From NCBI GenBank assembly GCA_017453125.1, contig JAFTKS010000003.1, positions 1 through 64,000 on the forward strand: a DNA stretch of 64,000 nt, in the 5' to 3' direction. Under the pieces are notes generated by a model. The model did not search any database and was not told the DNA's origin. It saw only the letters and a program-made list of their open reading frames with translations. The position numbers and the translations under genes are program-made. Source of the DNA: Clostridia bacterium (GTDB lineage Bacteria; Bacillota; Clostridia; Christensenellales; UBA1242). Below, one piece after another: positions 34,984 through 53,654 of the stretch (within the stretch, counting starts at the first letter, position 1; every line of letters starts with the position of its first letter).

Positions 34984-35410
34984 AGGTTACTCCTCAATAA
35001 ATTTCAATACTTTTATTGTACAAAAATTTTCAAATTCTGTCAATGATTTTGCTATTTAAAAACAACAAAGCAGTTATATTTAAAAAAGTGCTTTTGCTGT
35101 GATTTTTTTTGTAAAAGTATACGTATGTTTTTTGCTTTTATTTTTTAAAAGAATTGTTTTTTGTGCGACAAAAATCAAAGGTATTTGAGAAAATTGATTA
35201 GAAATGTCGAGATTTGAGTGGCTGAATTAACATATTTGTCAATCTTTTGTAAAAGATAAATATATTAAATAATTTATTATTTACATAGCGAATTTATTTT
35301 TTATTTTCGACAATATGTGCTAGAATAGTATAGAAATGTTTGGGGCTTGTTTTTTGAAAAGCCAATATAAAAATGCCAAGCATACAAGAAAAACATACAA
35401 GGTGAATGAA
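34984..35410. other. Regulatory region upstream of the giant lipoprotein gene
   Basis: This AT-rich divergent region has no gene. An extended -10 element TGCTAGAAT lies at 35318-35326, with start of transcription expected near 35333, giving a leader of about 78 bases to the lipoprotein start. A -35 is not clear, which may indicate an activator or another sigma factor. Confidence 0.5.
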
Positions 35411-38400
35411 ATGAAAAAGGTAAAAACAATTTTAGGAAGTTTATTTGTGATGCTAGCAAGCGTTCTTATTAGCGCTTGTTCTTGTTCTGGAAGTGATGCT
35501 CCAGTTAGTCACGTTTACGTCAAGGATATCTCTATCAGATGTCTAGAAGAACAAGACGACAACAAGGTTACGCATTCAATCAATGAAAATAGTGGCGTTA
35601 TCAATTTGACGTGCCACCTTTATGATACTTTTAGGATAGAGTATACTCTTTCTCCGTCTGAAACAACTACAACTCAAGTCAATTGGAGTTATTCTGTTCC
35701 AGACCTAGTGAGCGAAGTTGATGGAAGAACCTATAGAGCCAATTCTGCAATCGAGGTTGTAGAATTCAAGGCTATACGTAGAAGTTCCAATAACAAAACT
35801 ACCACAATTACTTTTTCTACATTCGTAGCAGGAGAGGGTAATGAACTTCTTACAAAGACCGCTGTTTGTAATGTAACAATCTTTGATGAAGTTGCCAAAC
35901 TTCCTACTCTTGTCAAGCCTGAGAAAGTTTCTCTTGTTGAAAAAGAAACAAATGCTGGTGTTGTTAATAGAATTGAGTGGACTGAAGTCAATAAAGTTAT
36001 ACCTGTTGGTGCAACCGAAGAACAGGCAGTAACTGGAGAAATGGAAGGTGGTCATATCAAAGGTCTCAAAGGTTATGAACTTCTTCTAACAGATGAGAAC
36101 GGCAACGTTGTTTCCAAAGACTCCAGTGGAAACCCTGGAAAAACTCTAATTGGTCCAAATTTCAATTGCTATCCAACAGACGCTATGATTGCGACTGGAG
36201 ATTATGTTCCAATCGAAAGTGGCAAGAAATACAATGCAGTAGTTACTGCGGTTGGAGACCAAGGTAATGCAAAAACTAGTGCACCTAATGACGAATTGAA
36301 ATTCTACAAAATTGAATCTGTATCAGAATTCAAAAACAATAATGGAAAAGTTACTTTCTTGGCTCCTGCAAATTCTCAACAACACGATATTACCTATTCG
36401 TCAAGGTTTGAACCTGTGACTTGGTCAACGGGATTAAGTGATGGAACTTTGGCTGTTGATTTTGATTGTAATTCAGAGACATACAAAGCATTTTCATTAT
36501 ACGAACTATCGGTGTTGTCACATCCAAGATATTCTGAAAGCGAGAAAGTGTCTGAACAAGGATATGCAGTATATGATGATGGCTATAGATATTATCCAAG
36601 TGCACAATCCAAAGTTCATACTATTCAACGTCTTGCTGCTCCAAAGTTGAGTTTAGCACCAACTACTATGGATATGGAAATTGGTGGAAAAACTTTTGAA
36701 GATGTAGATGCGTCTACTAACTTGATTTTGACAGTTGATGCTAGTTATGATACAAAATACAATCAAACATTTGAATGGGAGATTCAAAACCAAAATAGTA
36801 GCAACAATTCTTCTATAAAAGACAAGAGTGTTATCTCCCTTAATGATAAGGAGCCTGGTTCGTATATTATCAAAGTAAAAACTGTAGGAAATCCAGACAA
36901 TACAATTTCTAGTAAAGAAGTAAAGGCAGATCTTCGTGTATTGCCATATTTCACAAAGAATACAAACCTAACACTTAATGGCGATATTTTAGAGTATGGT
37001 TACTTGTCACCATCTTCTCCAACAATTGGTGGATTCGATTTGTTCTTTATTGATAAAGATGCAACAAGTGGCGAGAAAGGTAATTCAAAACACGTTAAAA
37101 TTGAGCAACGTCAATTAACTGAACTAAGTGATGGTCATTATTCATTCGATATTAGCACTATTGGTCTGATGTTTGGAACTTATTCTCTATATGCAAAGCC
37201 TATCCATTACATCAATTCAACTACAACCGAATCAGACGGTGTTATTGAATATTCGGCAGTTAATGCTATTGGAAAGATTTCACTAGAGGAATTGTTTAAA
37301 TTCTCTGTTATACAAAACATCGATACAACAGGAGTTGTTATCAATAGTGATGGTACTCTTATTTTCGATAGAGTCAAAGATGACAACGGAGAGTACTTCC
37401 CAGAATACAAATTGTCTTGGAGAAATTATAATAAAAAAAGCACAAGCATTGATCAGATAGAAGGTATTGGTTTAGTAGATTTTGTTTTGACAAATGAAGA
37501 AACTGACATTGAAAATAATAAATTCCAATATACAATTATTGGAGATGGTGCAAGTGTATCTATTCAGATAAGAGATGTATTGCAAGGATATGTTGATAAT
37601 TTTAACAAGCAAGTAAACGAGTCTCAGAAAATCTCTTTAGATAAGCTTCTACTTAATGATGGAATTAATGAAGTTATGGAACAACAATTCTTTGTAACTG
37701 TTGTTGGTAGAAATCCTATCTCAACGTATACTCCTCATTATATTAGTTCCAAAATGGCACCAGAAGGGGGAATTAAGTGTATTCTAAAACCAGCTCTTGA
37801 TTCTTTTGCACTTGCAGATTATAACATTAACTTTGCGTATGAAGGACAAGAAGTAAATGTTGTTATTGAATTGAAGGTAGTTGATGAAGATAATTCTTCG
37901 GCAACTCCAACTTACTATAAAACTGATGAGATTAATTGCAAGAAAGTAAATGGTGGATTCTCTGTTAACTTGTATAGTGCCGATTGTGATATTATTCGTA
38001 ACAATATCAATACAAACGGACTCAAAAATTCATTAAGAGTGATTATTTGTGGAAAACAAGCAAATGATGCAACAGTTGGAGAATTGGACTACAAGTCTAA
38101 CTTTGTAGATTATGAAATAACATCACAACCTAATAATGTTTCAATTGTGGATAATGACGGCGAAGTTTCGTTAAGTTGGGATTCTATTAATGTTGGAGAA
38201 GAGGAAACAAAATATTCTATCAATTATTATGAAGTAACAAAAGTTTCTGATAATGAGTCATTCTCTCCACTTGGTTCGGAATATGGTATCCAAGAATTAA
38301 CATACGATGTTTATACAATATTGAAAAATAACCCTGGCAAAGTAATTGCTTTTGAAGTGGTTGAAAATAATAGTGGAAAACTTAATGGTATTGCAAGCGA

Positions 38401-41400
38401 AAGAGTTTATGCTAGCCAATTGTCAAAGCCAGTACTTTCGTATGGTTCGGTTGGCGGAAAAGAGTCTATTGTTTGGAAAGCATCAGGCATAGATAATGTT
38501 TATGAGATATATTTGGACGATACTAGCAAAGAAGGAAATTGGAATTCTACATCTGATGGAATGTACTATTATAATGTTCCTGGTTTGCAAGAGGGTGTTT
38601 ACAAAATTGCTGTCGTTGCAAAATATACCGCCGATCCTAGTAATCAAACAACAACAGCAGGTTCAAATTTTAGCAACCCATTGGTTGTTGCTAGCGAGAA
38701 GTCGTTTATCCCTGTATATGTAGTTTCAAAAGCAATGGATTATACTGTTATAAATTCAGGAGCAGCAGAAGTTCTTGCTTGGTTGGATATTTGTAATATA
38801 ACTCCATCAAATACAGATTCAGCAACTTATACATTATCTCAAGGAACTGGCGAAAATGAAAAAACTTATGTTGTTGAAGGAAGTTTGAGTGTAAGTATTT
38901 CTGATTTGATTTCTGCAGGATTTGTCTTCAATGGTGGCGCAAATAATATTGTAATAACACCATCTATCAACTTTGCAGATGTTACAATTGGAGAAGGTGA
39001 GTCTGCTACAACTATTCCTGCAACTGGTATTATTTTGACAGGCAATGTTGATACAAGCGTGTCTGCTCTAAAATGGTATCAACCTACAATTACAGGTACT
39101 TCAAAAGGTCAACTTGTTGTTGATTTGGGAGAGGATAACAAGAGCATAATTGCAAGTGCACAAAATGTTGTGTTTGACTTGTATACATATGATGGAGAGG
39201 ATTATTCGTTAATTGATGCAAACAAATTCTCTGTTACAAAAGATGCTGTTAATAATACTATTTATTATATCGATGTGTTTGGTCTTGATGCTAGTGTAGA
39301 AACTTCTTATAATTTCGCTGTTAAGGTTCGTTCTTCGAATGTTTTGACAAGTGATTATAGTGCAACAAAAACCGCAACTAAGATTGCTCAAGTTCAAGTG
39401 GGCAACCAAGAGACTGATACAGGCAATTTCCAAAAGATAGGAGATGTGCTACAATGGGCACCAATTTCAAATGCTACTCAGTACATTATTAGTTACAAAC
39501 TTGCAATAGAAGAAAATTATGAAACTATAGTGGTTGATGTTAATGGAACAGAGGTTACAAACGCAACAGTTGACCTCAACTTCCGTTATGAGAATGGTCG
39601 TTTTGTATGCGACTTTGATGAAAAAGTATTCTTTAATTTTGGAACAGAAGTAGACAATATTGTATCGGGTGATTTGAATATCACAATTCGTGCATTAACT
39701 AGTGGTATTGATGGATACCTAAATAGTGATGTGTCAGATATTTATACAATTACTCGACTTAACAATAATGGCAAGTGGGTTACAATTGAAGGGGGAGTGA
39801 TTAAGTTTGCTCCATATTCTAGCACTGAAGAAGTTGTTGTTCCAGAAACTCCAGCGCCAGAAGGTACAGATGATGATAATACCGAGAATCAACCTGCACC
39901 TATAGATGACCCAGAGAACGAAACAACCGAGGGCGAGACTACTGGGGGTGAGACTACCGAAGATGAAACTATTGATTCAATCGGAACAAACAAGCCTAGA
40001 GGTTATAGAATCACTATTTCAAAAATAATGATGATTGAAACTACTCCTGCAACAACAGTAGAAGAGGGTGGAGAGGCAGGTTCTGGTTCTACCGAACAAA
40101 CTCCTACTCAAGAAGAAAAAGTTGTTGCTGTATACGTTCAAGATTCTTCAACTAGTTATGCTATTGGCAATATTGACCTTAACGATATTAAGGCAAAAGC
40201 AATACTTTCATTTGCTGAGTATGGCAAAACATATGCTGTTGGTAATGATGTTCCATTCACAGCAGATGGAAAATATGTTCTTACATTACAATTCCTTGGC
40301 AATGATAACGAAATCATTAGTAGCCAAGAGATTTCTGTAGATTTAACAAAAACTGCAAAAACACAACTTTCGACTGACGAAGGAAAACTTCAATGGACTC
40401 CAGTAACAGATGCAAGTTATAGACTTGAAATTAGTAGTGGAGAAGGTTCTGGTTATGCTGAAGTCGGCAAGGATTCTTCAATTGAAGTGATTGGAAGAGA
40501 GTATTCAACAACAGATGCAGAAGGCAATGTGATAACCAGAACAATTACAGCAGGACAAACATATTCTATCAAAGTTCTTGCTTATGTTGATGGTCAACTT
40601 CATAGCGAGTGGTCAGACGCATTCAATATCTATGTTTTGAAAGCTCCAACTGGCCTTGCTCTTTCAACTGCTCAATCAAGTGAAACAATAGAAATCAAAA
40701 CCACAGTAGACGATGTTGAAACTACTCAAAGTGTGACTTATGATGTAGGTTCTCCAATCATCTCGTGGTTAAGTAATAATAATATCGAGACAACTGCAGG
40801 TGGGGCTTATCCATTGAATTTTGAATTGGTTTATACCGACAAAGATGGAAAATCAACTTCTGTAGTTATCCAAAATTCAAAAAATCTTAGAGCTTATATT
40901 GATAACAATCTTCCAGCAGGAACGGTTGCTATCAAAATAAGAGTTATTGGAAATACTTGTAATGACATAACCAAAGTTGGTATCATTACTTCTCAGTATT
41001 CTGATGTACTTAATGTGACATATGTTGACGAACCAAGTAGTGTTACAATCAACAATGGTTCTATCACTTGGGCAAATATTGATAATGGTATTAAATATTA
41101 TACTGTTACTGCTTATGACAAAGTAGCATATGAAACATACCTTACTGCATATGAAACATACTTGACTGAACTAGAAGAGTATAATACAAAACTTAAGGAA
41201 AAGGCAGAAGCCGAAGATCCTGATAGTGTAGTTGTTCCTAACGAGCCAACAGAACCAAAGATTTCTGCTGTATTTGCTCAAAGAGTTACAACAAACTCTC
41301 TTGACTTTACAAAGGTTGATTATAATAACCTTAGTCAAGCAGGCGGAATAACATTAGTTGTTTCTGCAACAACCGATCCTAGCAAGAATGTTATTGTAAG

Positions 41401-44400
41401 TAGTCAAAGCACAGCAGTTAATTCTGCTAGTCTATTCAAAACACCAGTTGTTTCTGAATTTGGTGTGAAGAACGGAATGTTGAATTGGAAATTATCCGTT
41501 AATGATGGCACAAATGGAGATATCGAATCATTTGTAAATGGATTCATTACTCCTGCTATAGGTCAAGATGGTGCTAGTGAAAGTATTGTAGATGCAGACA
41601 AGGCAATTTCTGATGTTATTAAATATGTATATAACAAAATTAACCTAGGTAGCGGAAAGATTGGCGATACATTCGCTACTGACGCAACTCTAGAGGCTCA
41701 AATTTCATATCTATTAAGTATTAGAATGAATTATAACAATAATGTTGTAATAGTTGTTCCTTCGAAAGTAGAATTGCTTGACGCAGACGGAAAGGTAACT
41801 CAAGCATTAGAATCTGCAAAAACTCTTGAATACTATTACAATGTTGTGACCGAGCCAGAAAAAGCAAATCCAGAGACTGAACAAACTCCTGCAACAGTTG
41901 ATGAGTCTGCTGGTACAAACACTACTTATGAGGGTGGAAAATATATTATTTCTCTATCTTCTGTTGGTAATGGTGACAAGCTTGTTCCAATAGTTAGCAG
42001 TGGTTATACAGGTAATCTTACTGCATACAAACCAGAGTCTCCAGAGACTTGGGGAGAAACTTCTGAATTGACTCAGTCTTTGATTGATATTGACAACGGC
42101 TTTGTTCAATGGAAACGTCCAACAACAGTTGAGAAAGATGTAACAAGCGGAACACTTACAAATCATACAAAGTTCTATATTTCTGCAAAAGCAACAAATA
42201 CTAGTGCAGATTCTAGAGCTATATCTACTATAGTTGATACTGATAAGGTTGGTAATGGCACTGCTTCTGATTACAGAGTACATCTAACAAATCTATTCAG
42301 ACCATCATCTAGTAGTTCGGTATTCTCTTATCAATTGACAGATAGTAGTATCTTCAATGATGGTATTTATTTGAATACTGTTACATTTGATGTTCATACT
42401 ACAGTTCCTTCTGTTGATAACAAAAAATATTTCAATCATTACAAGATTGATTATAGTACAAATATAGTAACAATTACATATTTTGACTATAATGGTCAAG
42501 AAACAACAAGTTCTGTTCAATTAAATACAGAACCTGGAACATACACAACAATTGACCCATTGCGTAGATATATTCAAATCATTTATACAGTGGGTTCTGA
42601 TGGAAAAATAACTCGTGGAGAGTTCTTGAATAATTCTCTTCTATACAATACAAGTTATCAATTGAGTTTGTATACTATGGGTACAGAATTTGCTACTATC
42701 TCAGATAGCGAAACTCAAAAAGTATATCTCAATAGTAATACAACTTTTGTTACAGAAGAAGTATGTTTCTTGAATGCTCCAACAGCAATAAGTTTTGCTG
42801 GTAGCAATATGAGTTGGTCTAGTACCGACAAGGCTACTGCAACTCAACTATATATCTATGGTCCATTTGATAATATGGATGATACTGGATATTATAGAAA
42901 CTTGGCTTGGGCGGGACTAACTACTCAAGGCGAGGCAAATGTTAAATATGTTGTTGATGATACGAAATTGACAGCATTGTATAACAACAAGAAAAATGGT
43001 GGAACTCTTGACTATGCAGGTTTGGGTTTGACCGGAAAAGAAAAACTTCAAATTATTCCTCTTGGTGCCAAAGACGCTATGGGAACAAGAGATACTTCAT
43101 ATACACTTACTGATAATACCAACTTTGGTGCAGGTGGATATATCGTTCACTTCCAGCATTTAGGTAATGGCAGAGGTGTAATTGATAGTGGTGTTACAGC
43201 ATTCAATCAAATTGACCAAAACGATAATGTTTATTATCAAACATACGAAGATGCTATTATCAATTATGCAAATGCACAAGACACAGTAGGTACATATGAC
43301 TTCAATGCATTGACTGATAATGGTCAGAAAACTTATGCGGTTGAGAAACTTACTCAGAACACTCAACCACAATCAACTATTGAAGTTAATGAAGAAGACA
43401 CAGTTATTTCAACTGGTTGGGTTGGAAATGACGACACTGTAGCCTATAGATGGGTTGCAGATACAGGCGTTGTTACCAACAAAACACTAGCAAAAGATGG
43501 CTGGGTAGAGATAGACAACGATGCTGTTGACCAAGAAACAGGTGCATTTGTATGGAGCCCTGTATATGGAGCAAACGCATACAAAGTAACTCTATATCAA
43601 AGAATTAGCGCACAAGCTACAACAGCTGAAGCCAAGTATACAATATATACAAGAGAAACACGTCATAGTGTAATTGATGAAGTTATCCAAAACGACCAAG
43701 ATATTACAGGCAATGAATTGTATTATTTGGAGATTGTTCCAATTAGAACAGAGGGCGGAGAGATTCTAAATCCAACCGACACAACAAGTGGTATGCCAAC
43801 ACTTGCTATGGCTATGTTTAATGGTGACAAAGAATTCACAACAGAGCATATTATGCTTACTATTCCAAATTCACTTGCAATTGATAGCAATGGTAATATT
43901 ACTTGGAATGGCCCTGCGAATATAGAGTCACCAATCAAAGAACACTATATCCAAATCAACAAAACAGTAGATACAGATAGTTTAACAACTCAAATGAAAC
44001 CTGTATCAAATCCATTCAATATCAATGATATTGATTTCTTGGATAGTGCAGTTGGAAAGATTGGAATTCAAATCAAAGCAATTGCAAACAATGGAACAGC
44101 TGAGGACAATCAAGACAAGATTACTCAAGGCAATAGAAGACTAAGCAGTGTATATTCTATTGTAAGTTTCGTAGAAAGAATTTCTGACCCACAAGTAAGA
44201 CTAGAGAAGGGTGTGTTCAACTGGATAACAGGTACACCTGCAACGGCTAGTGAATTGTGGATAAACAAATCAATAGAATCTGCTCCAGAAGTTCGCAATG
44301 ACGACAATGTAATGATGTATACAGATATAACTGCACATAATTCTAGATATACTTCAGATGGAGATTTGAATGAATTCCCAGAAGACGAATATCAATTCGC

Positions 44401-46717
44401 AGTTAGATATCAAGGAAATATTATTCCAGACGAAGATAGAAATGACGGCTATCAAACAATGACTGCTGGTCAAACTTATATCGTTGCTTCAAAGATAAAA
44501 ACATTGAAAGCAACAAAACTAAGTGCGCCAAGCACAGAAAATGATATAATACTAGATGATAATGGCGAAGACCTCAACGTAGTTGCTTGGGAACCTATAC
44601 CAAATGCTCAAGGTTATAGAGTAAGGGTATTCAGCAAGATTGATACTATTGACGAAGAGAGTGGAGATGTTGTAAGAACCGAAAAAATGATTGAAAAAGA
44701 AGTTGGATTAACCGACCTTAATAGTGGTAATTCTACATTCTTCTTAAGCAAGAACGGCAAAGTATACTTCTTGGTAGACCAAGTATTGGGAGAAGGTTCA
44801 GACCAATTCAATATCAAAGTAACTGGTGGAAGTATTAATATCTACGTTCAAGCACTTGGTTCTAGCGATGTTCCTACATACTCTGAGGCAGAAGTTCAAG
44901 AAAACGAAATGTATCTTGCAAGTAGTTATTCTACATTCACAACAATTGGTGTTCCTCCAAGACCAACATTTGTTGCAGATACTGCATTTGATACAAATAC
45001 TGCTACATTGACTTGGGCAGTAGGTGAATCTGATGATACAAATGCTTATAACATTAAGATTACATCTACATATACAGTAACAGGCGTTTCAAAAACAGAC
45101 TTTGAAGGTTATTGGATAAATTCTGCTAATAGATATATGCAAAAAGATGGTTCAGAGACCACAAACGCATCTCTAGAAAGAACTTATCCAGAAATCAAAG
45201 ATAGAGCGATTGTATACGAAGAAACAACTGAAGATGATGAGTCGACAGAAAATATTGATGAAAGTGTATATAGCCTAACTATCACTGATACAATTGAATT
45301 ACTTTCAAAAGACTATAACAATAGAACACCTCTAAAATATCAATTCACAAATATGGGTACTTATACTAGCATTAAGATTGTTGCTATGTCATTCGGAAGT
45401 GGTGCTAGCGAAGATAGTGAATTCGTATCTATGCCTACATACTTGAATGGTGGAAATCTATCAGCACAAGTTTCTGTATTCGGAAAAGGTGATGGTAGTG
45501 ATATCTTCCCATATGAAGTAGATACATACAACGAATTCAATAACATTAGAGCATTCAATACTAGAGCATTCAAACTAACAGGAGATATTTCTCTTACAAT
45601 CAAAGTTAATACAGAAACCAAAGTTGAACCTTGGACTCCAATTTCAGAGTTCTCAGGTACAATTGATGGAAATAATTGTTCAATTAGTAACTTTACAAAT
45701 ATTACAGATGATTCAGATAGTAACTTTATAAATAATACAAAGTATCCAGAATTTGCATTCATAATCAACAATACTGGTACAATCAAGAACTTAACATTTG
45801 TTGACCCTATAATTAAAATGACTGGTGATGTTTCTCCAAAACTAGCAACTATAGCAATTGAAAACTATGGAATAATTGATAATGTTCGAGTTACTGGAGC
45901 AACTATTTCAGCAAACCTTGGAGGTTATCCGAATGGAGAAAGTGCAACAACTGTTGCTGGACTTGTAATCTCCAACTTGATTGATGATAAGACTGGCAAC
46001 GTGGGAACGATTACTAATTCAAGTGTAGAAGCAAGTATGACTGCACTTGATAATACTTCTATGTCAACACTTGCTAGTGGTATTGCAATTAATAACCAAG
46101 GAACTATTGAATATACCAACTTCAAAGGAACAATCAAAGCCAATGTAATTGGTGGTATTGTAAAAGAAAATGTAGGTAAAGTAGATAGATGTAGTATTGA
46201 TGACGCAACATTAACAGTGACAGATAAATATAGCAGCGAGTCTCAAACAGGCACAAAAATATCTTCATTGGGTGGCATTATCAATAAAATAGGAGGAGAT
46301 GATGCAATTCTTACAAATTCTTATAGTAAAGCAAAGATTGTTGTAGAAAGAACTGGTACGAGCAGTAGTATGTTGATATCTGGAATGGTTGTGTCAGTAG
46401 CACAAGGTGCGGTAACAATTAGCGGTAACTATATTGTATTTGATGTTGTAAAGGGTGGAACAAACAATCCAACATCTGTTAACTATATGATTCCTGTACC
46501 AGAAAATCAAACAGGTCTAACTTGCGAAAACAACTTCTATGTAGTTGTATCTGGTGAAGGACAAATCACAACACCTTCGGCAGACAAAGGAACACAAGTT
46601 GTACTTTCAAACGAAGGCAAGGGTGAACTAGCACAGGCATTAATAAATGCAGGATTGGGAGATGTATATGATACATCTATAACTCCTTATCCTACATTGA
46701 AACCAAAAACAAACTAA
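35411..46717 (+). CDS. Giant surface lipoprotein with many FN3/Ig-like modules and a GLUG-like C-terminus
   Basis: The protein has about 3768 residues. The start at 35411 (MKKVKTILGS) is chosen because an AAGGTGA site precedes it and it yields a proper lipoprotein signal ending LISAC; a 25-codon upstream extension was rejected. By eye about 18 Ig/FN3-like units repeat along the protein, each marked by a strand with (I/L/V)xW (for example SLSWDSI, LQWTPVTD, ITWANI, VAWEPIPNAQGYRV) and a later Tyr. A Thr/Glu/Pro-rich acidic linker sits at about residues 1470-1525. Residues from about 3358 to the end resemble a GLUG-type beta-solenoid (FSGTIDGNNCSISNF, GTIKNLTFVDP, GKVDRCSIDD). No sortase signal is seen. 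The likely role is adhesin or matrix scaffold. Confidence 0.88.
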   Translation: MKKVKTILGSLFVMLASVLISACSCSGSDAPVSHVYVKDISIRCLEEQDDNKVTHSINENSGVINLTCHLYDTFRIEYTLSPSETTTTQVNWSYSVPDLVSEVDGRTYRANSAIEVVEFKAIRRSSNNKTTTITFSTFVAGEGNELLTKTAVCNVTIFDEVAKLPTLVKPEKVSLVEKETNAGVVNRIEWTEVNKVIPVGATEEQAVTGEMEGGHIKGLKGYELLLTDENGNVVSKDSSGNPGKTLIGPNFNCYPTDAMIATGDYVPIESGKKYNAVVTAVGDQGNAKTSAPNDELKFYKIESVSEFKNNNGKVTFLAPANSQQHDITYSSRFEPVTWSTGLSDGTLAVDFDCNSETYKAFSLYELSVLSHPRYSESEKVSEQGYAVYDDGYRYYPSAQSKVHTIQRLAAPKLSLAPTTMDMEIGGKTFEDVDASTNLILTVDASYDTKYNQTFEWEIQNQNSSNNSSIKDKSVISLNDKEPGSYIIKVKTVGNPDNTISSKEVKADLRVLPYFTKNTNLTLNGDILEYGYLSPSSPTIGGFDLFFIDKDATSGEKGNSKHVKIEQRQLTELSDGHYSFDISTIGLMFGTYSLYAKPIHYINSTTTESDGVIEYSAVNAIGKISLEELFKFSVIQNIDTTGVVINSDGTLIFDRVKDDNGEYFPEYKLSWRNYNKKSTSIDQIEGIGLVDFVLTNEETDIENNKFQYTIIGDGASVSIQIRDVLQGYVDNFNKQVNESQKISLDKLLLNDGINEVMEQQFFVTVVGRNPISTYTPHYISSKMAPEGGIKCILKPALDSFALADYNINFAYEGQEVNVVIELKVVDEDNSSATPTYYKTDEINCKKVNGGFSVNLYSADCDIIRNNINTNGLKNSLRVIICGKQANDATVGELDYKSNFVDYEITSQPNNVSIVDNDGEVSLSWDSINVGEEETKYSINYYEVTKVSDNESFSPLGSEYGIQELTYDVYTILKNNPGKVIAFEVVENNSGKLNGIASERVYASQLSKPVLSYGSVGGKESIVWKASGIDNVYEIYLDDTSKEGNWNSTSDGMYYYNVPGLQEGVYKIAVVAKYTADPSNQTTTAGSNFSNPLVVASEKSFIPVYVVSKAMDYTVINSGAAEVLAWLDICNITPSNTDSATYTLSQGTGENEKTYVVEGSLSVSISDLISAGFVFNGGANNIVITPSINFADVTIGEGESATTIPATGIILTGNVDTSVSALKWYQPTITGTSKGQLVVDLGEDNKSIIASAQNVVFDLYTYDGEDYSLIDANKFSVTKDAVNNTIYYIDVFGLDASVETSYNFAVKVRSSNVLTSDYSATKTATKIAQVQVGNQETDTGNFQKIGDVLQWAPISNATQYIISYKLAIEENYETIVVDVNGTEVTNATVDLNFRYENGRFVCDFDEKVFFNFGTEVDNIVSGDLNITIRALTSGIDGYLNSDVSDIYTITRLNNNGKWVTIEGGVIKFAPYSSTEEVVVPETPAPEGTDDDNTENQPAPIDDPENETTEGETTGGETTEDETIDSIGTNKPRGYRITISKIMMIETTPATTVEEGGEAGSGSTEQTPTQEEKVVAVYVQDSSTSYAIGNIDLNDIKAKAILSFAEYGKTYAVGNDVPFTADGKYVLTLQFLGNDNEIISSQEISVDLTKTAKTQLSTDEGKLQWTPVTDASYRLEISSGEGSGYAEVGKDSSIEVIGREYSTTDAEGNVITRTITAGQTYSIKVLAYVDGQLHSEWSDAFNIYVLKAPTGLALSTAQSSETIEIKTTVDDVETTQSVTYDVGSPIISWLSNNNIETTAGGAYPLNFELVYTDKDGKSTSVVIQNSKNLRAYIDNNLPAGTVAIKIRVIGNTCNDITKVGIITSQYSDVLNVTYVDEPSSVTINNGSITWANIDNGIKYYTVTAYDKVAYETYLTAYETYLTELEEYNTKLKEKAEAEDPDSVVVPNEPTEPKISAVFAQRVTTNSLDFTKVDYNNLSQAGGITLVVSATTDPSKNVIVSSQSTAVNSASLFKTPVVSEFGVKNGMLNWKLSVNDGTNGDIESFVNGFITPAIGQDGASESIVDADKAISDVIKYVYNKINLGSGKIGDTFATDATLEAQISYLLSIRMNYNNNVVIVVPSKVELLDADGKVTQALESAKTLEYYYNVVTEPEKANPETEQTPATVDESAGTNTTYEGGKYIISLSSVGNGDKLVPIVSSGYTGNLTAYKPESPETWGETSELTQSLIDIDNGFVQWKRPTTVEKDVTSGTLTNHTKFYISAKATNTSADSRAISTIVDTDKVGNGTASDYRVHLTNLFRPSSSSSVFSYQLTDSSIFNDGIYLNTVTFDVHTTVPSVDNKKYFNHYKIDYSTNIVTITYFDYNGQETTSSVQLNTEPGTYTTIDPLRRYIQIIYTVGSDGKITRGEFLNNSLLYNTSYQLSLYTMGTEFATISDSETQKVYLNSNTTFVTEEVCFLNAPTAISFAGSNMSWSSTDKATATQLYIYGPFDNMDDTGYYRNLAWAGLTTQGEANVKYVVDDTKLTALYNNKKNGGTLDYAGLGLTGKEKLQIIPLGAKDAMGTRDTSYTLTDNTNFGAGGYIVHFQHLGNGRGVIDSGVTAFNQIDQNDNVYYQTYEDAIINYANAQDTVGTYDFNALTDNGQKTYAVEKLTQNTQPQSTIEVNEEDTVISTGWVGNDDTVAYRWVADTGVVTNKTLAKDGWVEIDNDAVDQETGAFVWSPVYGANAYKVTLYQRISAQATTAEAKYTIYTRETRHSVIDEVIQNDQDITGNELYYLEIVPIRTEGGEILNPTDTTSGMPTLAMAMFNGDKEFTTEHIMLTIPNSLAIDSNGNITWNGPANIESPIKEHYIQINKTVDTDSLTTQMKPVSNPFNINDIDFLDSAVGKIGIQIKAIANNGTAEDNQDKITQGNRRLSSVYSIVSFVERISDPQVRLEKGVFNWITGTPATASELWINKSIESAPEVRNDDNVMMYTDITAHNSRYTSDGDLNEFPEDEYQFAVRYQGNIIPDEDRNDGYQTMTAGQTYIVASKIKTLKATKLSAPSTENDIILDDNGEDLNVVAWEPIPNAQGYRVRVFSKIDTIDEESGDVVRTEKMIEKEVGLTDLNSGNSTFFLSKNGKVYFLVDQVLGEGSDQFNIKVTGGSINIYVQALGSSDVPTYSEAEVQENEMYLASSYSTFTTIGVPPRPTFVADTAFDTNTATLTWAVGESDDTNAYNIKITSTYTVTGVSKTDFEGYWINSANRYMQKDGSETTNASLERTYPEIKDRAIVYEETTEDDESTENIDESVYSLTITDTIELLSKDYNNRTPLKYQFTNMGTYTSIKIVAMSFGSGASEDSEFVSMPTYLNGGNLSAQVSVFGKGDGSDIFPYEVDTYNEFNNIRAFNTRAFKLTGDISLTIKVNTETKVEPWTPISEFSGTIDGNNCSISNFTNITDDSDSNFINNTKYPEFAFIINNTGTIKNLTFVDPIIKMTGDVSPKLATIAIENYGIIDNVRVTGATISANLGGYPNGESATTVAGLVISNLIDDKTGNVGTITNSSVEASMTALDNTSMSTLASGIAINNQGTIEYTNFKGTIKANVIGGIVKENVGKVDRCSIDDATLTVTDKYSSESQTGTKISSLGGIINKIGGDDAILTNSYSKAKIVVERTGTSSSMLISGMVVSVAQGAVTISGNYIVFDVVKGGTNNPTSVNYMIPVPENQTGLTCENNFYVVVSGEGQITTPSADKGTQVVLSNEGKGELAQALINAGLGDVYDTSITPYPTLKPKTN
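41126..41167 (+). repeat. 21-bp tandem duplication inside the giant lipoprotein gene
   Basis: GCATATGAAACATAC plus six bases occurs twice in a row, encoding AYETYLT twice, at the start of a charged helical insertion that interrupts one Ig-like unit. Confidence 0.8.
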
Positions 46718-46746
46718 AAAAACCGAGTAATCGGAAAAGCAATTTT

Positions 46747-46773
46747 GACTACTCTCATTGATTGAGAGTAGTC
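46747..46773 (+). repeat. Strong intercistronic hairpin between giant lipoprotein and signal peptidase genes
   Basis: GACTACTCTCA / TGAGAGTAGTC form an 11-bp stem with a 5-base loop, extended by outer AAAGCA / TGCTTT pairing. It has no T run, so it fits an mRNA-processing or stabilising element better than a full terminator. Confidence 0.7.
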
Positions 46774-46847
46774 GGGATTATGCTTTGAAAAAATAATCAC
46801 ATATCAAAACAAAAAAACTTAAATTACAAAATTAAACGGAGAAAACT

Positions 46848-46898
46848 ATGGTGTGGATATTTGTTGCGTACACTTTGTACTTATGTTTCTTTAAATAG
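46848..46898 (+). CDS. Possible 16-codon hydrophobic leader peptide before the signal peptidase gene
   Basis: An ATG at 46848 follows GGAGAAAACT, a good ribosome binding site, and opens a 16-codon frame encoding MVWIFVAYTLYLCFFK before TAG. The product would be very hydrophobic and aromatic. It lies 49 bases ahead of the signal peptidase gene. It may be a leader peptide, or the site may be accidental. Confidence 0.4.
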   Translation: MVWIFVAYTLYLCFFK

Positions 46899-46947
46899 AA
46901 AAATGGAAAAACAAAGAAATCACACTTAGAATGCAAAAGGAAAACTT

Positions 46948-47544
46948 ATGAGGTTTTACAGACTAGAAAAAAACAAAAAATTCAGTTATTGGGCATATGT
47001 TACTTTCAAAATTATTGCACTCGCATTGATTGCAACAATTGGAATTATGATGCTATGTGGATATAAGTTTATGATAGTTTCTTCTGGTTCTATGGAGCCG
47101 AAACTTCCTGTAGGAAGTCTTGTAATTGTAACGCCTTGCGAATATGAAGATTTGGAGTATGGCGATATTGTTACAATGGACGCAGGTGGAATATATTTAA
47201 CCCACAGAATCGTAGGAAAATTTGACAAAAACAATCCTACTGACAAGTATTCAATTTTGAAACCAGGTGACGAAGGTTATGATGAGGAAACTCGTTGGGT
47301 TACTCAAGGTGACGCCAATGCAGAACCCGATGGTGTACTTAATGATGATATCGTAGGCAAAGTCTATGAGGCTCACGCTTTTGGTTGGGTTGGCTTGTGT
47401 GTTAGATATATTAGATCACACTATACAATGCTTATAATCTTACTTATAATTTTTGCTGTATTCTTCTATGCAATGGATTGGTTGAAGACCAAGATGGTGC
47501 CAGATGATATAGAATGTTACGAAACAGATGATGACGAGGACTAA
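46948..47544 (+). CDS. sipW: ER/archaeal-type signal peptidase I, SipW-like
   Basis: The protein has 198 residues. An N-terminal membrane helix (about 15-40) precedes VSSGSMEPKLPVGS, containing the nucleophilic Ser. The second catalytic position is His in YLTHRIVGKF, not Lys, which places it in the ER-type S26B class together with Bacillus SipW. A conserved TQGDANAEPD box follows. A second helix (about 155-175) and an acidic cytoplasmic tail complete it. SipW processes TasA-type matrix proteins, and four such proteins are encoded directly downstream, the first starting 1 base after this stop. Confidence 0.93.
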   Translation: MRFYRLEKNKKFSYWAYVTFKIIALALIATIGIMMLCGYKFMIVSSGSMEPKLPVGSLVIVTPCEYEDLEYGDIVTMDAGGIYLTHRIVGKFDKNNPTDKYSILKPGDEGYDEETRWVTQGDANAEPDGVLNDDIVGKVYEAHAFGWVGLCVRYIRSHYTMLIILLIIFAVFFYAMDWLKTKMVPDDIECYETDDDED

Positions 47545-47545
47545 T

Positions 47546-48346
47546 ATGGAAAAAACAAGAGGAGTAGATAAATACAAAGTATCTTTTATAGTAGTACTAA
47601 TTGTAGTACTTCTATCCTCTTGCATTTTCATTGGTACTGTTCTTGCTTGGCTCAAAGATAGTGATACATTTCAGTCAAATGGTGTGATAACCCTTGGTAC
47701 TGTAGATTTTGAATTGTATGGAAGTGGAGCATCTCCAATCACTACAATCAAAAATAATTATAATGGTGTCACAAGAACAAGTATAGAAACTCCTCTAACC
47801 ATTTCTGGAAATAGTAGAGATAGGTCATTTAGTTTGTCTATTAGAAATACAGGCACAGTTAGTGCGATTGTAAGGGTAACACTACAACTTTATTATCTTG
47901 ATTCCAATGGTAATAGAGTGGTATTGATTATGACCGAAAGTGACCCAGAAACAATGTCAAGTAATTATGTCAAGATGGTTTCTCCATTGGGAAAATGGAC
48001 GAATGATTTCAAAGGTGGCGTAACGGCAGGATATATGTACTGCAATACTCAAGTAGCGCCATATACCATCAGTAGTATTGTACATAATACAGATGGAACA
48101 GATACGATTACTCCGACGGCAATTCCTGAGAACGCTGTCACGATTGTGTCTCAGATTCTTGTTCCAGAATCAATGAAGAATCAAACATATTATATATCTG
48201 TTACGGTTGATGGTGTTGCCTATTCGGGTAATATTTATCAAGAACTAGAAGACAAAGACAATAGTCAATCTTATCAAATTCCAGTGGAGGCATATCCTTT
48301 CGGAGTGCCTAGCGGATTGCCAGAGGCTTGGACGGCTTGGAAATAA
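47546..48346 (+). CDS. TasA/camelysin-like secreted protein 1
   Basis: The protein has 266 residues. Start 47546 (MEKTRGVDKY) has GAGG upstream and lies 1 base after the peptidase stop. The N-terminal helix ends GTVLAWLKDSDTFQSNG, the SipW-cognate signal pattern with cleavage expected before or near AW. The mature part is beta-rich: ITLGTVDFELYG, FSLSIRNTGTVSAIVRVTLQLYY, YISVTVDGVAYSGNIY. This resembles the TasA/CalY fold, in which subunits assemble into fibres. The N-terminal DVEL-like strand after the signal is typical for donor-strand-type assembly, though that is inference here. Confidence 0.82.
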   Translation: MEKTRGVDKYKVSFIVVLIVVLLSSCIFIGTVLAWLKDSDTFQSNGVITLGTVDFELYGSGASPITTIKNNYNGVTRTSIETPLTISGNSRDRSFSLSIRNTGTVSAIVRVTLQLYYLDSNGNRVVLIMTESDPETMSSNYVKMVSPLGKWTNDFKGGVTAGYMYCNTQVAPYTISSIVHNTDGTDTITPTAIPENAVTIVSQILVPESMKNQTYYISVTVDGVAYSGNIYQELEDKDNSQSYQIPVEAYPFGVPSGLPEAWTAWK

Positions 48347-48375
48347 AAATTCAAAAAAACAAGAGGGAGGAAGTA

Positions 48376-49050
48376 ATGAAAAAAGCAAGCAAATTTCGGC
48401 TACTTTGGGTATTTGCCATAGTTGCTATTTGTATCGGGCTAATTGTTGGCTCGTATACTGTGACTGTCGCTTGGTTTAGTGACGAATCTGTTACTTCCAA
48501 TGGCGATATTATCAAGGTAATTGGAACTATTGACCTCGATGTTACAACCAATTTTGATTTTTATAACCTTGCTCTTGCACCTGATACAATATACACAACT
48601 GACCAAGACGGCAATGACATTGGTACATATATCAAAACATCTTCACAAAATAACATTCGTGATGTTTATGTACGTGTTTCTTTTGAAACGAATAGAAGTG
48701 AACTTTCCTTGTTCTTTGACGAGGGCAAGTTGACAACAACTACTACTTATACTTCTGATCTTGATAATAAGTGGTTTTATAATTCGGCTGACGGATATTA
48801 TTATTATCTTGGTGCTGTGGGTGGAGTAGATAGTGTTAAGTTTAATGCGGGCTACAAAGTGGACAATACACTTAATAACGCTCCATCAACCAATAATGCT
48901 GGTGAGAATGTTGATATCCAGATTATAGTAGATGCAATTCAAAGACCTTATGGTGCTTATAAGTCCGATACCGATTGGGCTACTGCACCAGAAGTTTTCA
49001 AAGATTTCTGTGCTGCCGATTCGGGTGTGGCGTGGAGACCTGCTAATTAA
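48376..49050 (+). CDS. TasA/camelysin-like secreted protein 2
   Basis: The protein has 224 residues. The start at 48376 (MKKASKFRLL) has GGGAGG at 7-8 bases. A membrane helix is followed by VAWFSDESVTSNGDIIKVIGTIDLDV, the hallmark order of camelysin/TasA (AWFSD, then a strand with IxVGxxDLxV). Further on are NIRDVYVRVSFET and VDIQIIVDAIQRP, both like TasA strands. It would be processed by the SipW-like peptidase upstream and secreted as a fibre subunit. It is separated by 29 bases from the preceding gene. Confidence 0.85.
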   Translation: MKKASKFRLLWVFAIVAICIGLIVGSYTVTVAWFSDESVTSNGDIIKVIGTIDLDVTTNFDFYNLALAPDTIYTTDQDGNDIGTYIKTSSQNNIRDVYVRVSFETNRSELSLFFDEGKLTTTTTYTSDLDNKWFYNSADGYYYYLGAVGGVDSVKFNAGYKVDNTLNNAPSTNNAGENVDIQIIVDAIQRPYGAYKSDTDWATAPEVFKDFCAADSGVAWRPAN

Positions 49051-49135
49051 AATTTTTAAAAAATAAAATTCCTTAAAACCAATCAATGTTTTACTTTGTT
49101 ATCCTTATTAGATAATGGAGGGCTTGGAGAAAATT

Positions 49136-49930
49136 ATGATAGCACAAAAACAACAGAACAACTTAAATAAAAAAATACAAATGCAGAATATGATAATAAT
49201 CGCACTTGCAATAGTTATCATAGTTCTTATTGTCGTGTCTTCAACGGCTGCGTGGTATATTAGAACCAAGTCCGACTCTACCGACCTTATCCTTTCAAGA
49301 CCGGTTAATATTTATATTACAGAATACACAACTGGGCAAGGCGGAGAAACCATTCATACTGTTAAAAAAGATATTCTTGAAGATTATGACAATAGAATTT
49401 ATCCGGGCGATAGAGTCAAACTTAATCTTGGTATGGTAATAGGTTCTGCCGACGACCCATCAAGTAATGCGTTCGTAAGAGTAAAACTTCAGATGGCGTT
49501 CTCAAAACTAGGAGATAATGGTGTTGAAGAACCTATAGCAATGGAAGATTTGAGAGACCAACGTCTTATAGAATATCAGAATGAGCCAGATGGGGAGATG
49601 TGGGAACTTATAGATTTTAATGACCCAGAAGGAAAACTTGAAAAAAATGCAGATTATGTTCCCGATTATTGGTATGTTTTGAAAACAAAAGATGCCTATG
49701 GAAATGATATTGCAAGAGAGGCTCTTGATGGTCAAACATTTGAGTTTGTAAATGGCTTCATAAAACTTAGTAAAACAGAAATTACCAATAAACACGCAAA
49801 TTGTTCGTTTCATATACTTTATGTAGTAGAGGCAATTCAGAGCAAAAACGTGCCAGACCCTGTTAAATATCCAGGCTATGGTCCTTGGTACAACTTTATG
49901 TATGGAGATGTAGAAGACGTACAAGGTTAA
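49136..49930 (+). CDS. TasA-like secreted protein 3, PGD subclass
   Basis: The protein has 264 residues. The start at 49136 (MIAQKQQNN) has GGAG at 8 bases; an ATG 21 bases upstream lacks a site. A short polar N-terminus is followed by a helix ending VVSSTAAWYIRTKSDST, a SipW-type signal. The mature part has RPVNIYITEY, IYPGDRVKLNLG and, near the end, ITNKHANCSFHILYVVEAIQ. These three blocks recur in the 60018 gene product, defining a subclass distinct from the shorter camelysin-like proteins. Confidence 0.8.
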   Translation: MIAQKQQNNLNKKIQMQNMIIIALAIVIIVLIVVSSTAAWYIRTKSDSTDLILSRPVNIYITEYTTGQGGETIHTVKKDILEDYDNRIYPGDRVKLNLGMVIGSADDPSSNAFVRVKLQMAFSKLGDNGVEEPIAMEDLRDQRLIEYQNEPDGEMWELIDFNDPEGKLEKNADYVPDYWYVLKTKDAYGNDIAREALDGQTFEFVNGFIKLSKTEITNKHANCSFHILYVVEAIQSKNVPDPVKYPGYGPWYNFMYGDVEDVQG

Positions 49931-49956
49931 TGCTGTTTAGGGAAAACATAAAATAT

Positions 49957-50024
49957 CAAAAGCAAAAAGTAAATTTAACTATTTGCTTTTGCTAATGTAT
50001 TCGAGCGCTATTGAATATATTAGC
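49957..50024 (+). repeat. Two tandem hairpins between TasA-like genes 3 and 4
   Basis: CAAAAGCAAA / TTTGCTTTTG (49957-49991) is directly followed by GCTAATGTATTC / GAATATATTAGC (49991-50024). They fill most of the 134-base gap and may reduce or protect downstream mRNA. Confidence 0.7.
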
Positions 50025-50064
50025 AAAGTCAAATGATTAATAAAAAAGGAAAAAGGAGGGCTGT

Positions 50065-50949
50065 ATGGCTGACGAATATAATCAAAATAATAACCAGAAT
50101 AATCAGCAAAGAAAAGCTATAGACGTAACCAAGCCAAGGTCTGCGCCACCTCCTCAATCCAATATTGACGCTAGTAGGGTCAGTGCCTATACTCTTAGAG
50201 AACAACAATCGCTAGAGAAGTTGAAAAAACAGGTAGGAAACCTTAACCACAAAGAAAATAAGGCATCACTTATCAAGACCATTGTTGCTATTATCCTTGT
50301 GGTACTACTTATTATACTTGCGGTTGTATTTGTTATAATAATTGGTAGAGGCTCGTCTGTGGAAGAAGAGGTTGTTGATATGCGACTAAGTGTACAGATT
50401 GAGAATAAGTCCACCTTATCCATTATTACTGAAACGGGTGAAGAAAAACTTAGAGAAATCCACCCCGGAGATAGAGTGCCATTGAGGGCAAGTGTTAGAA
50501 ACTCAATGGATATTAGAGGAGACGCTGCACTAGAGGGAACAGAACCTCCTGCAATATATGTTAGATTCAAATTGGTACTAGTTCTTGGTTATGAAGAAAG
50601 ATACGATATAATGAAACCAACAATGCACGATGTTTGGTATAAGTATGATGCTGAAACAGAAGAAAAATTTGGTACTAACGGAATGTCTTTTGATGATCAT
50701 TATTATTATCTTAAGACAGCACTTCCATTCACAGATGCAAGAGAGCTATTTTCTGCTATCTTGTTTGATGGAAATGTTTTGACTTGTGATGATGGTGGCA
50801 AGTATGGACAGATTCAAGTTCACGTAGAATGTATTGAGGCTGATATTAATAATATAATATCAAGAACATTCTGGCCAACTGCACCACAAGGCTGGGTAAG
50901 CTATATGCTTTCCGAGTGGTCGGGTGGTAGCGTTTCAAGTAGTAACTAA
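50065..50949 (+). CDS. TasA-like membrane or secreted protein 4, with Asn/Gln-rich N-terminus
   Basis: The protein has 294 residues. AAAGGAGGG precedes the ATG. The first 70 residues are polar and rich in Asn and Gln (NQNNNQNNQQ), followed by a membrane helix (about 72-95) and an extracytoplasmic beta domain with MRLSVQIENKS, IHPGDRVPLRASV, IYVRFKLVL and VHVECIEADI. These blocks align with the PGD subclass of its neighbour. Unlike the others it has no AW(F/Y) pair after the helix, so it may stay in the membrane as a base or anchor. Confidence 0.72.
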   Translation: MADEYNQNNNQNNQQRKAIDVTKPRSAPPPQSNIDASRVSAYTLREQQSLEKLKKQVGNLNHKENKASLIKTIVAIILVVLLIILAVVFVIIIGRGSSVEEEVVDMRLSVQIENKSTLSIITETGEEKLREIHPGDRVPLRASVRNSMDIRGDAALEGTEPPAIYVRFKLVLVLGYEERYDIMKPTMHDVWYKYDAETEEKFGTNGMSFDDHYYYLKTALPFTDARELFSAILFDGNVLTCDDGGKYGQIQVHVECIEADINNIISRTFWPTAPQGWVSYMLSEWSGGSVSSSN

Positions 50950-51018
50950 TAATCCAAAAAATAAAAATAAACATATAAATTATCAAAGTGAGTTTTTGAA
51001 AACACGAAAACATTTGAA

Positions 51019-51043
51019 TAATTGATAGTTTGCGTATCAATTA
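51019..51043 (+). repeat. Hairpin before the transglutaminase-like gene
   Basis: TAATTGATA / TATCAATTA with a 7-base loop lies in the gap ahead of the last gene of the cluster, without a T run. Confidence 0.6.
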
Positions 51044-51078
51044 TAATTCTTTCGAAAAATTCTAAAAGTGAGGAAAAA

Positions 51079-53583
51079 ATGAAAAAAATAACAAGGTTTT
51101 GTGTCTTGTTGACAATGTCTTTAATAATGTGCATATGTCCGGTACTTACTGGGTGTTTTGATTTCGTTACACCTCACGTAGGTTCGCCAAACATAACTTT
51201 GCACGCAACATCTTTGTGTTTGTCCTGGGGTGCTGTAGAGAATGCTCGAAAATATGAGATTTATTGTAATGACGAGATGGTTAATGTGGTGACCGATGAT
51301 GAAATTCAGAAAACATATGTATATGATTTTAGTCCACATTTAACAACAAACGGAGAATATAAGTTTTATGTAATTACTAGGGCAAATTATAATGTTGCAG
51401 ACTTTAGTGAACCTAGTAATGAAGTTGTATTCAATTATGATTCTTCTGTGTTTGCTATCCCAATTGCACAATTCACAGATATAGAAACAACTGATGACTT
51501 TAATATTGCTTGCAATATTAATGGCAATAATATAATAATTTCTTCTCCTGAATATACAGGGGACGGAGATGTGCCAGAGGTTGATGGATACGAATTATAT
51601 TTGTATTCGACAAGTACAGGACTCAAAACATATCCTATTGAACTAAGTCAAGATTCAATTACAGTAGAGAGTATTTCTAATTATAATTTAAAGTATGAAA
51701 TTTATGCTTTGAGAATAGGAGTTGTGGTAGAAGACGAACATTATGTTTGTAGTGATATTAAATATATCAATCCTGTTAACGAAGGAAAATATTCTTCAAA
51801 TATTTATCTTTTTGATGGTTACATTAACGATATGTACTTGGATACAATTCAAGAACTCAACAATCTGGTTTATTATTCTTTCATAAGTAGAATTCCAACT
51901 CTTGAAATCCGAATTTCAGAGCCAATGCGTGCTTTGATTTATAACTATACTGGTGCAAATATTACCGAGAAATTAGGCTATGCATTCTATTCTGCATTTA
52001 CTACATTTTTAGAGACCAGAGAGTCTTATTCGGTATCTGTTAGCCAGATTGCAGAAAATGATTTCAAAGTAGACTTGGGATATTTGAAGACTGGGGACAA
52101 AGTGTATGTGAATAGGGACGGAAATGCCGAACCTGACATTGGTTTGGTTCCATCGCAATTCAATGCCCTAAGTTATGTTCATCAGAACCTTTCTCGCGAC
52201 GATAAGTATTATGATATGTATGAAGAATTAACTGGAAACAAACTAAGAATACACGACCCGAATTACAAAGAAGATTTCATATCTGATAGACAATTTTTAT
52301 ATCAAGAAGTAACATCTAGCGAAGAATTGTATTGGGCTGTTGAAAATAAGATTACTCCAATTTGTACAATGGGAAGTAGGGCGGAAAAAATATATTCTGA
52401 AGCAAAAAAGGTACTCAAAACAATCATATCAGATGATATGACCGATTACGAAAAAGTTCAATCTATATTCGATTGGATTTGTGATAATACTAGTTATGAT
52501 TATTATTCAGTTCAAGACGAAAGCTATGGTGGTGCGGCAGGTATCATTGTTCCAGTATTCTATTTGGAGGGCGTCTTTATGACTGGTTATGCAGTGTGTG
52601 ACGGTTTCTCCAAGGCTTTCTCACTAATGTGTAATATGGAAGGCATAGATGCTATTAGAATTGTAGGTACTGCCAATACAGGTAATGGCTATGGTGGTCA
52701 CGCTTGGAACAAGGTAAAACTAGATAGTGATCCTACCGATGAAATTGGTGGAGAATATTATTTGGTTGATTTGACTTGGACTACATTTATATCCAGCGGA
52801 AACAGTCTTGAAGTAGGTTCGCATTGGTACTTTCTGGTGGGCGATGACTTTGTGAAAGACACACATTTCCCATATGGTTCAAGAGGAAAATTCAATGCTT
52901 ATAAGGCATCAAATGATTATAACTATTTTGACATTACAGAATTCGAATTTACAAACTTAGAAACAAATGAAACAATTGTTTGTGACAAAATAATCGATAG
53001 CGAAAAAGAGTTGCAAGCAACCTTCCATCACGTGTTTGCAGAAAATCAAAAAACAATTGAGGTTATTATTGATTATGATTTCTTGATTTCAAACTATAAT
53101 GAGTATGGTGAAGGAAAGAAAAAAACATATGAAAATATCATTTCGCTTTTGATAGAAACTATGAGAGGGTTGAAGATAGATACTCAGTTGTTTGAATTGT
53201 ACCATACTTCTTATAGTCTTGTTGAATACAATTCGGAGGGCGATGCTGGTATTATATTTGTGTTTAGACAACGAATGCTTTTTGATGATGCAGAAACCCC
53301 AACATACGAAATTGGTAATCTTATCAATTATGTAAACTTGTATCAGCCACAAGGCTCTATCGAATTGATAGTGGAAGACGATTTCTTCAAGGCGATAAAA
53401 AAGACTGGAGAGACTGCAGGAGATGCAATAAGACGAGTTTTGATTAGTGAAATCGAAAAGACTTGTGGAAGTGGGCTTTTGTATTCGAATATCAAGTCGA
53501 TGTCGATTGTAGAGGATACTGATTATAGTGAAGAGGGTGAAACATTATATTATATTACTTTCGAATATAATAACAATAACTAA
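51079..53583 (+). CDS. Lipoprotein with transglutaminase-like domain and FN3-like N-terminal domain
   Basis: The protein has 834 residues. The start at 51079 (MKKITRFCVL) has GAGGA and gives a lipoprotein signal ending VLTGC. An FN3-like domain follows (about 30-120: SLCLSWGAVENARKYEIY). The transglutaminase core spans about 440-600, with Cys507 in GYAVCDGFSKAF, His541 in GGHAWNKV and Asp564 in LVDLTWTT, so the triad is complete. Such domains cross-link proteins or cut peptide bonds. The C-terminal 250 residues are a further beta-rich part. Being the last gene of the cluster, it may process or cross-link the fibre proteins on the cell surface. Confidence 0.88.
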   Translation: MKKITRFCVLLTMSLIMCICPVLTGCFDFVTPHVGSPNITLHATSLCLSWGAVENARKYEIYCNDEMVNVVTDDEIQKTYVYDFSPHLTTNGEYKFYVITRANYNVADFSEPSNEVVFNYDSSVFAIPIAQFTDIETTDDFNIACNINGNNIIISSPEYTGDGDVPEVDGYELYLYSTSTGLKTYPIELSQDSITVESISNYNLKYEIYALRIGVVVEDEHYVCSDIKYINPVNEGKYSSNIYLFDGYINDMYLDTIQELNNLVYYSFISRIPTLEIRISEPMRALIYNYTGANITEKLGYAFYSAFTTFLETRESYSVSVSQIAENDFKVDLGYLKTGDKVYVNRDGNAEPDIGLVPSQFNALSYVHQNLSRDDKYYDMYEELTGNKLRIHDPNYKEDFISDRQFLYQEVTSSEELYWAVENKITPICTMGSRAEKIYSEAKKVLKTIISDDMTDYEKVQSIFDWICDNTSYDYYSVQDESYGGAAGIIVPVFYLEGVFMTGYAVCDGFSKAFSLMCNMEGIDAIRIVGTANTGNGYGGHAWNKVKLDSDPTDEIGGEYYLVDLTWTTFISSGNSLEVGSHWYFLVGDDFVKDTHFPYGSRGKFNAYKASNDYNYFDITEFEFTNLETNETIVCDKIIDSEKELQATFHHVFAENQKTIEVIIDYDFLISNYNEYGEGKKKTYENIISLLIETMRGLKIDTQLFELYHTSYSLVEYNSEGDAGIIFVFRQRMLFDDAETPTYEIGNLINYVNLYQPQGSIELIVEDDFFKAIKKTGETAGDAIRRVLISEIEKTCGSGLLYSNIKSMSIVEDTDYSEEGETLYYITFEYNNNN

Positions 53584-53654
53584 TTTAAAAAAGACATAAT
53601 GTTATAACTTTTTGACAATAAGTTAATATAATTATATAATTTAATTATAAAATA

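Follow-up and report, generated by a model that had tools for sequence, protein, structure and literature searches.

This study indicates that positions 35411-53583 of the 64,000-nucleotide stretch analyzed here (the window; contig JAFTKS010000003.1 of the Clostridia bacterium assembly GCA_017453125.1) rather likely encode a cell-tethered apparatus for surface fibres of the SipW/TasA-BsaA kind. The best-supported unit of the system is a giant lipoprotein encoded directly upstream of a SipW-type signal peptidase. It is followed by four small proteins, here called subunits 1 to 4, and by a transglutaminase-like (TG) lipoprotein. A first-pass annotation of the window had described seven co-directional genes with short gaps, and the coordinates of the open reading frames (ORFs) bear this out, all seven being present. 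The features of the locus are as follows.

35306-35326, + strand: putative promoter region, TTCGACA at 35306-35312, then an extended -10-like TGCTAGAAT at 35318-35326
35411-46717, + strand: giant lipoprotein, 3768 aa from ATG 35411, lipobox LISAC
46948-47544, + strand: SipW-type (ER/archaeal-type, Ser-His) signal peptidase, 198 aa, above the cut-off of TIGR02228
47528-48346, + strand: subunit 1, 272 aa, SipW-type signal end ...TVLAWLKD
48376-49050, + strand: subunit 2, 224 aa, BsaA-related, signal end ...TVTVAWFSDES
49115-49930, + strand: subunit 3, 271 aa, signal end SSTAAWYIR, with AWYIR invariant among congeners
50065-50949, + strand: subunit 4, 294 aa, predicted cytosolic N/Q-rich tail of ~70 aa, membrane helix, ectodomain without a SipW-type cleavage end
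51079-53583, + strand: TG lipoprotein, 834 aa from ATG 51079 (853 aa from TTG 51022), lipobox, C-H-D triad
53655-53687, no strand assigned: bidirectional terminator-like hairpin, 13-14 pair stem, T tail on both strands

The identical seven-gene order was found in three congeneric species (G005, G006 and G009), and a fourth congener (G012), whose contig begins just before sipW, keeps the order from sipW on. Two species of a second genus, g9, carry an extended version, comprising the giant, sipW, subunits 1, 2 and 3, an extra gene, a second subunit 3-like gene, subunit 4 and the TG lipoprotein, followed by a GerA gene. SipW profile matches occur in 102 of 297 genomes of the wider family. An ORF exceeding 1800 aa lies immediately upstream of sipW, on the same strand, in 25 of the 72 SipW loci examined, from eight genera of the family (Fisher p about 1e-21 against the other ORFs of the same loci, related genomes being counted as independent in this and in the co-occurrence test below). 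The arrangement was seen at none of the 20 SipW loci taken from the order's other families. The gene-neighbourhood comparison proposed in the first-pass annotation therefore found the genes linked and co-occurring in related genomes. The annotation had also joined giant, peptidase and TG lipoprotein in one system; the giant proved to be the constant partner of SipW, whereas the TG lipoprotein is a facultative, separately movable part, which also occurs in genomes without SipW.

With regard to the peptidase, the Ser/His pair noted earlier is confirmed as Ser48 and His86, which together with Asp122 are invariant in 10 homologues. The protein scores 71.6 bits against TIGR02228 (cut-off 51.85) and 53.4 bits (E 2e-14) against the SipW equivalog model NF046067, a model named for Bacilli, whose cut-off of 190 it does not reach. 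The gene is linked to those of three neighbouring products that carry A-W(L/F/Y) ends, and these ends are largely conserved between genera. The signal ends AW(L/F) in two products and AWY in one were recovered as AWL in subunit 1, AWF in subunit 2 and AWY in subunit 3, while subunit 4 has none and, by its sequence, is not a SipW substrate.

Profile comparisons suggest that all four small proteins belong to one homologous superfamily, tied to the BsaA/SipW-cognate families. With profiles of 9-16 sequences per family, hhalign gave 99.3% for subunits 2 and 3 (194 columns), 98.8% for subunits 2 and 4, 98.5% for subunits 2 and 1 and 97.2% for subunits 3 and 4, against 3% and 7% for two unrelated controls. 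These profiles replaced earlier ones of 4-5 sequences, which were too shallow (5% for subunit 1 against subunit 3 or 4). Subunit 2 of the window matches the BsaA model TIGR04090 at 25.9 bits (E 7e-6, under the cut-off of 60), as do 8 of 16 subunit 2 orthologues (E up to 0.01), and TIGR04088 SipW-type signals were detected in some orthologues of subunits 1, 2 and 3. A C-terminal V-E-A-I / W-x-x-A-P-x-x-W pattern is common to subunits 2 and 4, and a counterpart of subunit 4 was identified in genus g12 (hhalign 97.1%). The earlier description of four TasA-like subunits can accordingly be kept as one of remote homology, seen by profiles, with no Pfam or NCBIfam match above cut-off. Subunits 1-3 have short N-termini, mostly with an A-W/F/Y end. 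The clear orthologues of subunit 4 have N-terminal tails of ~65-260 residues and a membrane helix. As the SipW-type cleavage end is missing in all of them, subunit 4 is probably an uncleaved, membrane-held fibre base.

Other small proteins were found near these families. In genus g12 (L086, L107 and L117), a conserved protein of ~780-800 aa with a membrane helix lies between sipW and the subunits; it was considered as a member of the superfamily and rejected, no tie being found (hhalign 22%). A genome without SipW (G003, L154:8178-11012) encodes four adjoining proteins that have a membrane helix and no A-W end, one of them weakly similar to subunit 4 (hhalign 52%), and these are possibly SipW-independent relatives. 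In other families of the order (L165, L166, L170 and L172), a recurrent layout combines TasA-like genes, a protein of ~1,060-1,120 aa and one more TasA-like gene, and it sits near sipW in L165 and L166.

The giants adjoining sipW range from 2,160 to 3,800 aa, and in all complete ones the signal peptide ends in a lipobox; clear cases missed by the lipobox regular expression, such as LFAC and FGC, were judged by eye. Iterated repeat searches found 6-24 fn3-like units per giant, with 485 hits across the giants. The giant of the window, an array of divergent fn3/Ig-like domains with a C-terminal GLUG-like region from about residue 3439 (long reading), belongs to the most divergent ones, having seven repeat hits and no fn3 match in the Pfam scan. 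The giant of G019 (L029) reaches 23.3 bits for Pfam fn3 (cut-off 25) and 27.8 bits for MtxA_IG-like (cut-off 26). Sequence searches of the PDB with the giant, with subunit 1 and with the profiles of subunits 2-4 returned no meaningful relative. The giant is most likely a long tether or adhesive stalk, which would hold or organize the fibre either at the wall or beyond it. A giant of another kind may exist in another family, where, at one of the 20 loci mentioned above, the gene directly downstream of sipW (G116, L169:10370-19831) encodes a protein of 3153 aa that bears a SipW-type AWF end and is a possible giant SipW substrate.

The TG lipoprotein matches Transglut_core (PF01841) at 45.5 bits (cut-off 23) and carries the complete triad behind a lipobox that had been reported earlier: C507/H541/D564 when counted from ATG 51079 (C526/H560/D583 in the long reading), invariant in 7 homologues. 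Its N-terminal fn3-like domain is weak (fn3 only at E 0.08). The family was found in 95 of 297 genomes, which rules out that it is unique to the SipW locus. With thresholds of closeness set after the data had been seen, a close TG lipoprotein is present in 18 genomes, among them all 13 with a close SipW (p about 5e-19). In four genomes (G046, G070, G019 and G041) its gene lies apart from the giant-SipW pair and adjoins a subunit 4 homologue. This pattern of two modules, one of giant, SipW and subunits 1-3 and one of subunit 4 and the TG lipoprotein, argues that the latter two belong to the system. TG matches with in-frame stops were observed in two small congeneric genomes (L137 of G002 and L153 of G008); this may reflect either decay of the system or poor assemblies.

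The seven genes are separated by 230 bp between the giant and sipW, the largest gap, and by 29, 64, 134 and 129 bp from subunit 1 through to ATG 51079 of the TG gene, while sipW and subunit 1 overlap by 17 bp. Of the terminator-like sites, only the one behind the TG gene is a strong hairpin placed after a gene, and none stands out between the seven genes in the terminator scan. This fits a single transcription unit, without proving it, and one transcript probably runs from about 35330 to 53655. An Rfam search around the locus found no riboswitch or leader. A sigma-70-type promoter match (12/12, TTGACA-17-TATAAT) was observed at 53612-53640 of the window, ~15 bases ahead of the bidirectional hairpin. 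In the aligned upstream regions of the giants in four genomes of the genus, TTCGACA is exact in three and reads AGCGACA in one, and TGnTAnAAT keeps the same spacing to this site; the 7-mer occurs in 2.9% of upstream regions as background. Read on the opposite strand, TTCGACA matches the Spo0A box (TGTCGAA), and the locus is possibly under Spo0A control, which we offer as a lead. The site was not found upstream of most giants from other genera; the idea of a Spo0A box holds for the genus itself, plus one g9 case, and was dropped for the family as a whole. Outside the locus, a 635-aa protein without Pfam match is encoded divergently from the giant (33076-34983), and near serS (27587-29680) lies a 697-aa protein that contains a bacterial surface Ig-like domain; homologues of both are placed likewise in G005 and G006.

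The genome of the window comprises 1.35 Mb at 99.7% completeness, and its named relatives are metagenome-assembled genomes (MAGs) labelled Clostridiales bacterium SIG384/393/395 and uncultured Clostridia BRZ_AM bin13. SpoIVA is encoded by every one of the genus's 13 genomes, GerA by 11 of them and Spo0A by the genome of the window, which indicates that these small genomes retain a sporulation set. The locus could therefore belong to a spore appendage or extrasporal-matrix system instead of a vegetative biofilm fibre, a reading which gains from the Spo0A-box-like site and from the GerA gene that follows the TG gene in the g9 operons. Where the TG gene is placed separately, germination-type genes come after it in G019 and G041, and a GerA gene does so in G008 and G002. 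Nevertheless, we consider a spore structure unlikely, as the lipoproteins and SipW substrates imply assembly at a cytoplasmic membrane and the site is missing upstream of most giants of other genera. The notion that unrelated surface genes have clustered by chance is hardly credible: weak family-model scores are all that favours it, whereas the order recurs in four congeners (in one from sipW on) and, extended, in g9, and both the association statistics and the mutual homology of the four subunits contradict it.

Two further explanations concern single components. Transglutaminase-like folds are known in both proteases and cross-linkers, which counts in favour of the TG lipoprotein acting as a cysteine protease on the giant or the fibre, by trimming or release. 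It shares the C-H-D triad and the fold class with the LapG-type BTLCP proteases, which cut giant adhesins (PMC13090378), and its occurrence without SipW points the same way. However, it matches Transglut_core and not the LapG-family model, as searches at E up to 0.1 returned only Transglut_core and the weak fn3. We regard a protease as a tentative alternative, somewhat less than an even prospect. The earlier suggestion that the enzyme matures or cross-links the assembly thus survives as one of two readings, cross-linking and LapG-type release, between which the sequence cannot tell. The giant, for its part, might be an independent adhesin merely co-transcribed with an ordinary SipW-TasA operon, given that lipoproteins with fn3 arrays are plausible adhesins by themselves and that some giant-SipW pairs have no adjoining subunit genes. 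This also appears improbable, since the giant adjoins SipW in eight genera, stays there when other parts move or vanish, and is absent from all 20 SipW loci of other families that were compared.

Several observations weigh against a tethered fibre apparatus. Giant and SipW occur without adjoining subunit genes in some genomes (G008 and G002), and five congeners carry the TG lipoprotein without SipW, some of these TG proteins being long or tandem, which means that it must have some further role. The p values given above are too small, because related genomes were treated as independent. The direct hhalign comparison of subunits 1 and 4 gave only 83%, and the TasA/camelysin model PF12389 (Peptidase_M73) had no match in the genome of the window, with a positive B. 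subtilis control. The structure prediction proposed for checking the TasA fold points neither towards nor away from that fold, for which the profile homology speaks: AlphaFold2 models of subunits 1 and 4, built from five sequences each, are weak, with a predicted local distance difference test (pLDDT) score of 60 and 64, respectively (80-93 in parts of the subunit 4 ectodomain), and Foldseek found no significant TasA match for either. The TasA fibre 8aur ranked first for subunit 4, at a non-significant E of 0.031 obtained with a low-pLDDT model, and subunit 1 was modelled as a beta sandwich without clear relative, TasA not being among the Foldseek matches listed, which we do not read as a sign of another fold.

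In the tethered fibre apparatus that we favour, SipW would cleave subunits 1-3 at the A|W end that follows the membrane helix, thereby freeing a new N-terminus. In TasA the N-terminal strand completes the next subunit by donor-strand assembly (PMC9674648), and export of BsaA requires SipW (PMC7395162). By analogy with these two proteins, we infer fibre formation, with the freed N-terminus acting as donor strand for the next subunit and the fibre of subunits 1-3 being held by the uncut subunit 4 and by the giant. Subunit 4, of the same superfamily, would remain in the membrane as fibre base, and the giant, a lipid-anchored fn3-like chain with a beta-rich C-terminal end and the constant partner of SipW, could tether or organize the fibre. 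The TG lipoprotein would work outside the membrane on the assembly, probably cross-linking subunits or the giant; this is the weakest step.

It is rather doubtful, in our judgement, that these features define a class of tethered donor-strand fibres, with an uncleaved base, a wall-spanning lipoprotein stalk of 2,160-3,800 aa and covalent links made by a surface TG enzyme. If true, Gram-positive cells would have a further route to hold cross-linked fibres, beside sortase pili and the free TasA matrix. The way in which fibres of the SipW/TasA type attach to the cell is, to our knowledge, likewise unsettled in Bacillus. Concrete anchor candidates are now offered by a subunit-superfamily protein that is not cleaved and by a giant lipid-anchored partner of SipW, in a locus conserved over several genera of a small-genome gut family, and the question of how the fibre is held becomes testable. 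The system is also a likely surface structure of a lineage seen here only as MAGs.

As the first-pass annotation had supposed, the combination of a giant lipoprotein, SipW, a membrane-held subunit and a TG lipoprotein was not described in the literature searched (mostly outside subscription journals). The sipW-bsaABCRSD operon of Clostridium perfringens resembles the locus in that several putative secreted proteins are encoded after a SipW-type peptidase (PMC7395162), and the subunit 2 family matches the BsaA model, under the cut-off for the copy in the window. In contrast, that operon as described lists neither a giant lipoprotein nor a transglutaminase, both present here, and no sensor-regulator pair was recognized in our block. 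Bacillus subtilis tapA-sipW-tasA shares SipW processing of subunits and one specially initiating member, TapA (PMC10151520). TapA, however, is a SipW-processed two-domain protein, whereas the candidate base here is an uncleaved membrane protein, and the constant partner here is a lipoprotein of 2,160-3,800 aa. The sipW-tasA/calY system of Bacillus cereus likewise has several TasA paralogues, one SipW and no TapA, but no giant lipoprotein, uncleaved subunit or TG enzyme is described for it (PMC4292775). LapA/LapG also pairs a giant repetitive adhesin with a TG-fold C-H-D enzyme; it differs in being Gram-negative, with a retention module and without SipW or TasA-like subunits (PMC13090378), and the enzyme here is a Transglut_core lipoprotein. 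The TG-related lipoproteins of the MAG6410 family (NF045980) have a TG core in a lipoprotein as well (E 5e-16), although the match reaches 58 bits against a cut-off of 450. We know of no SipW locus for that family. We read the locus as a lineage-specific variant of the SipW/TasA-type fibre systems, in a family of gut Clostridia that are uncultured and form spores, and it is this variant that is new.

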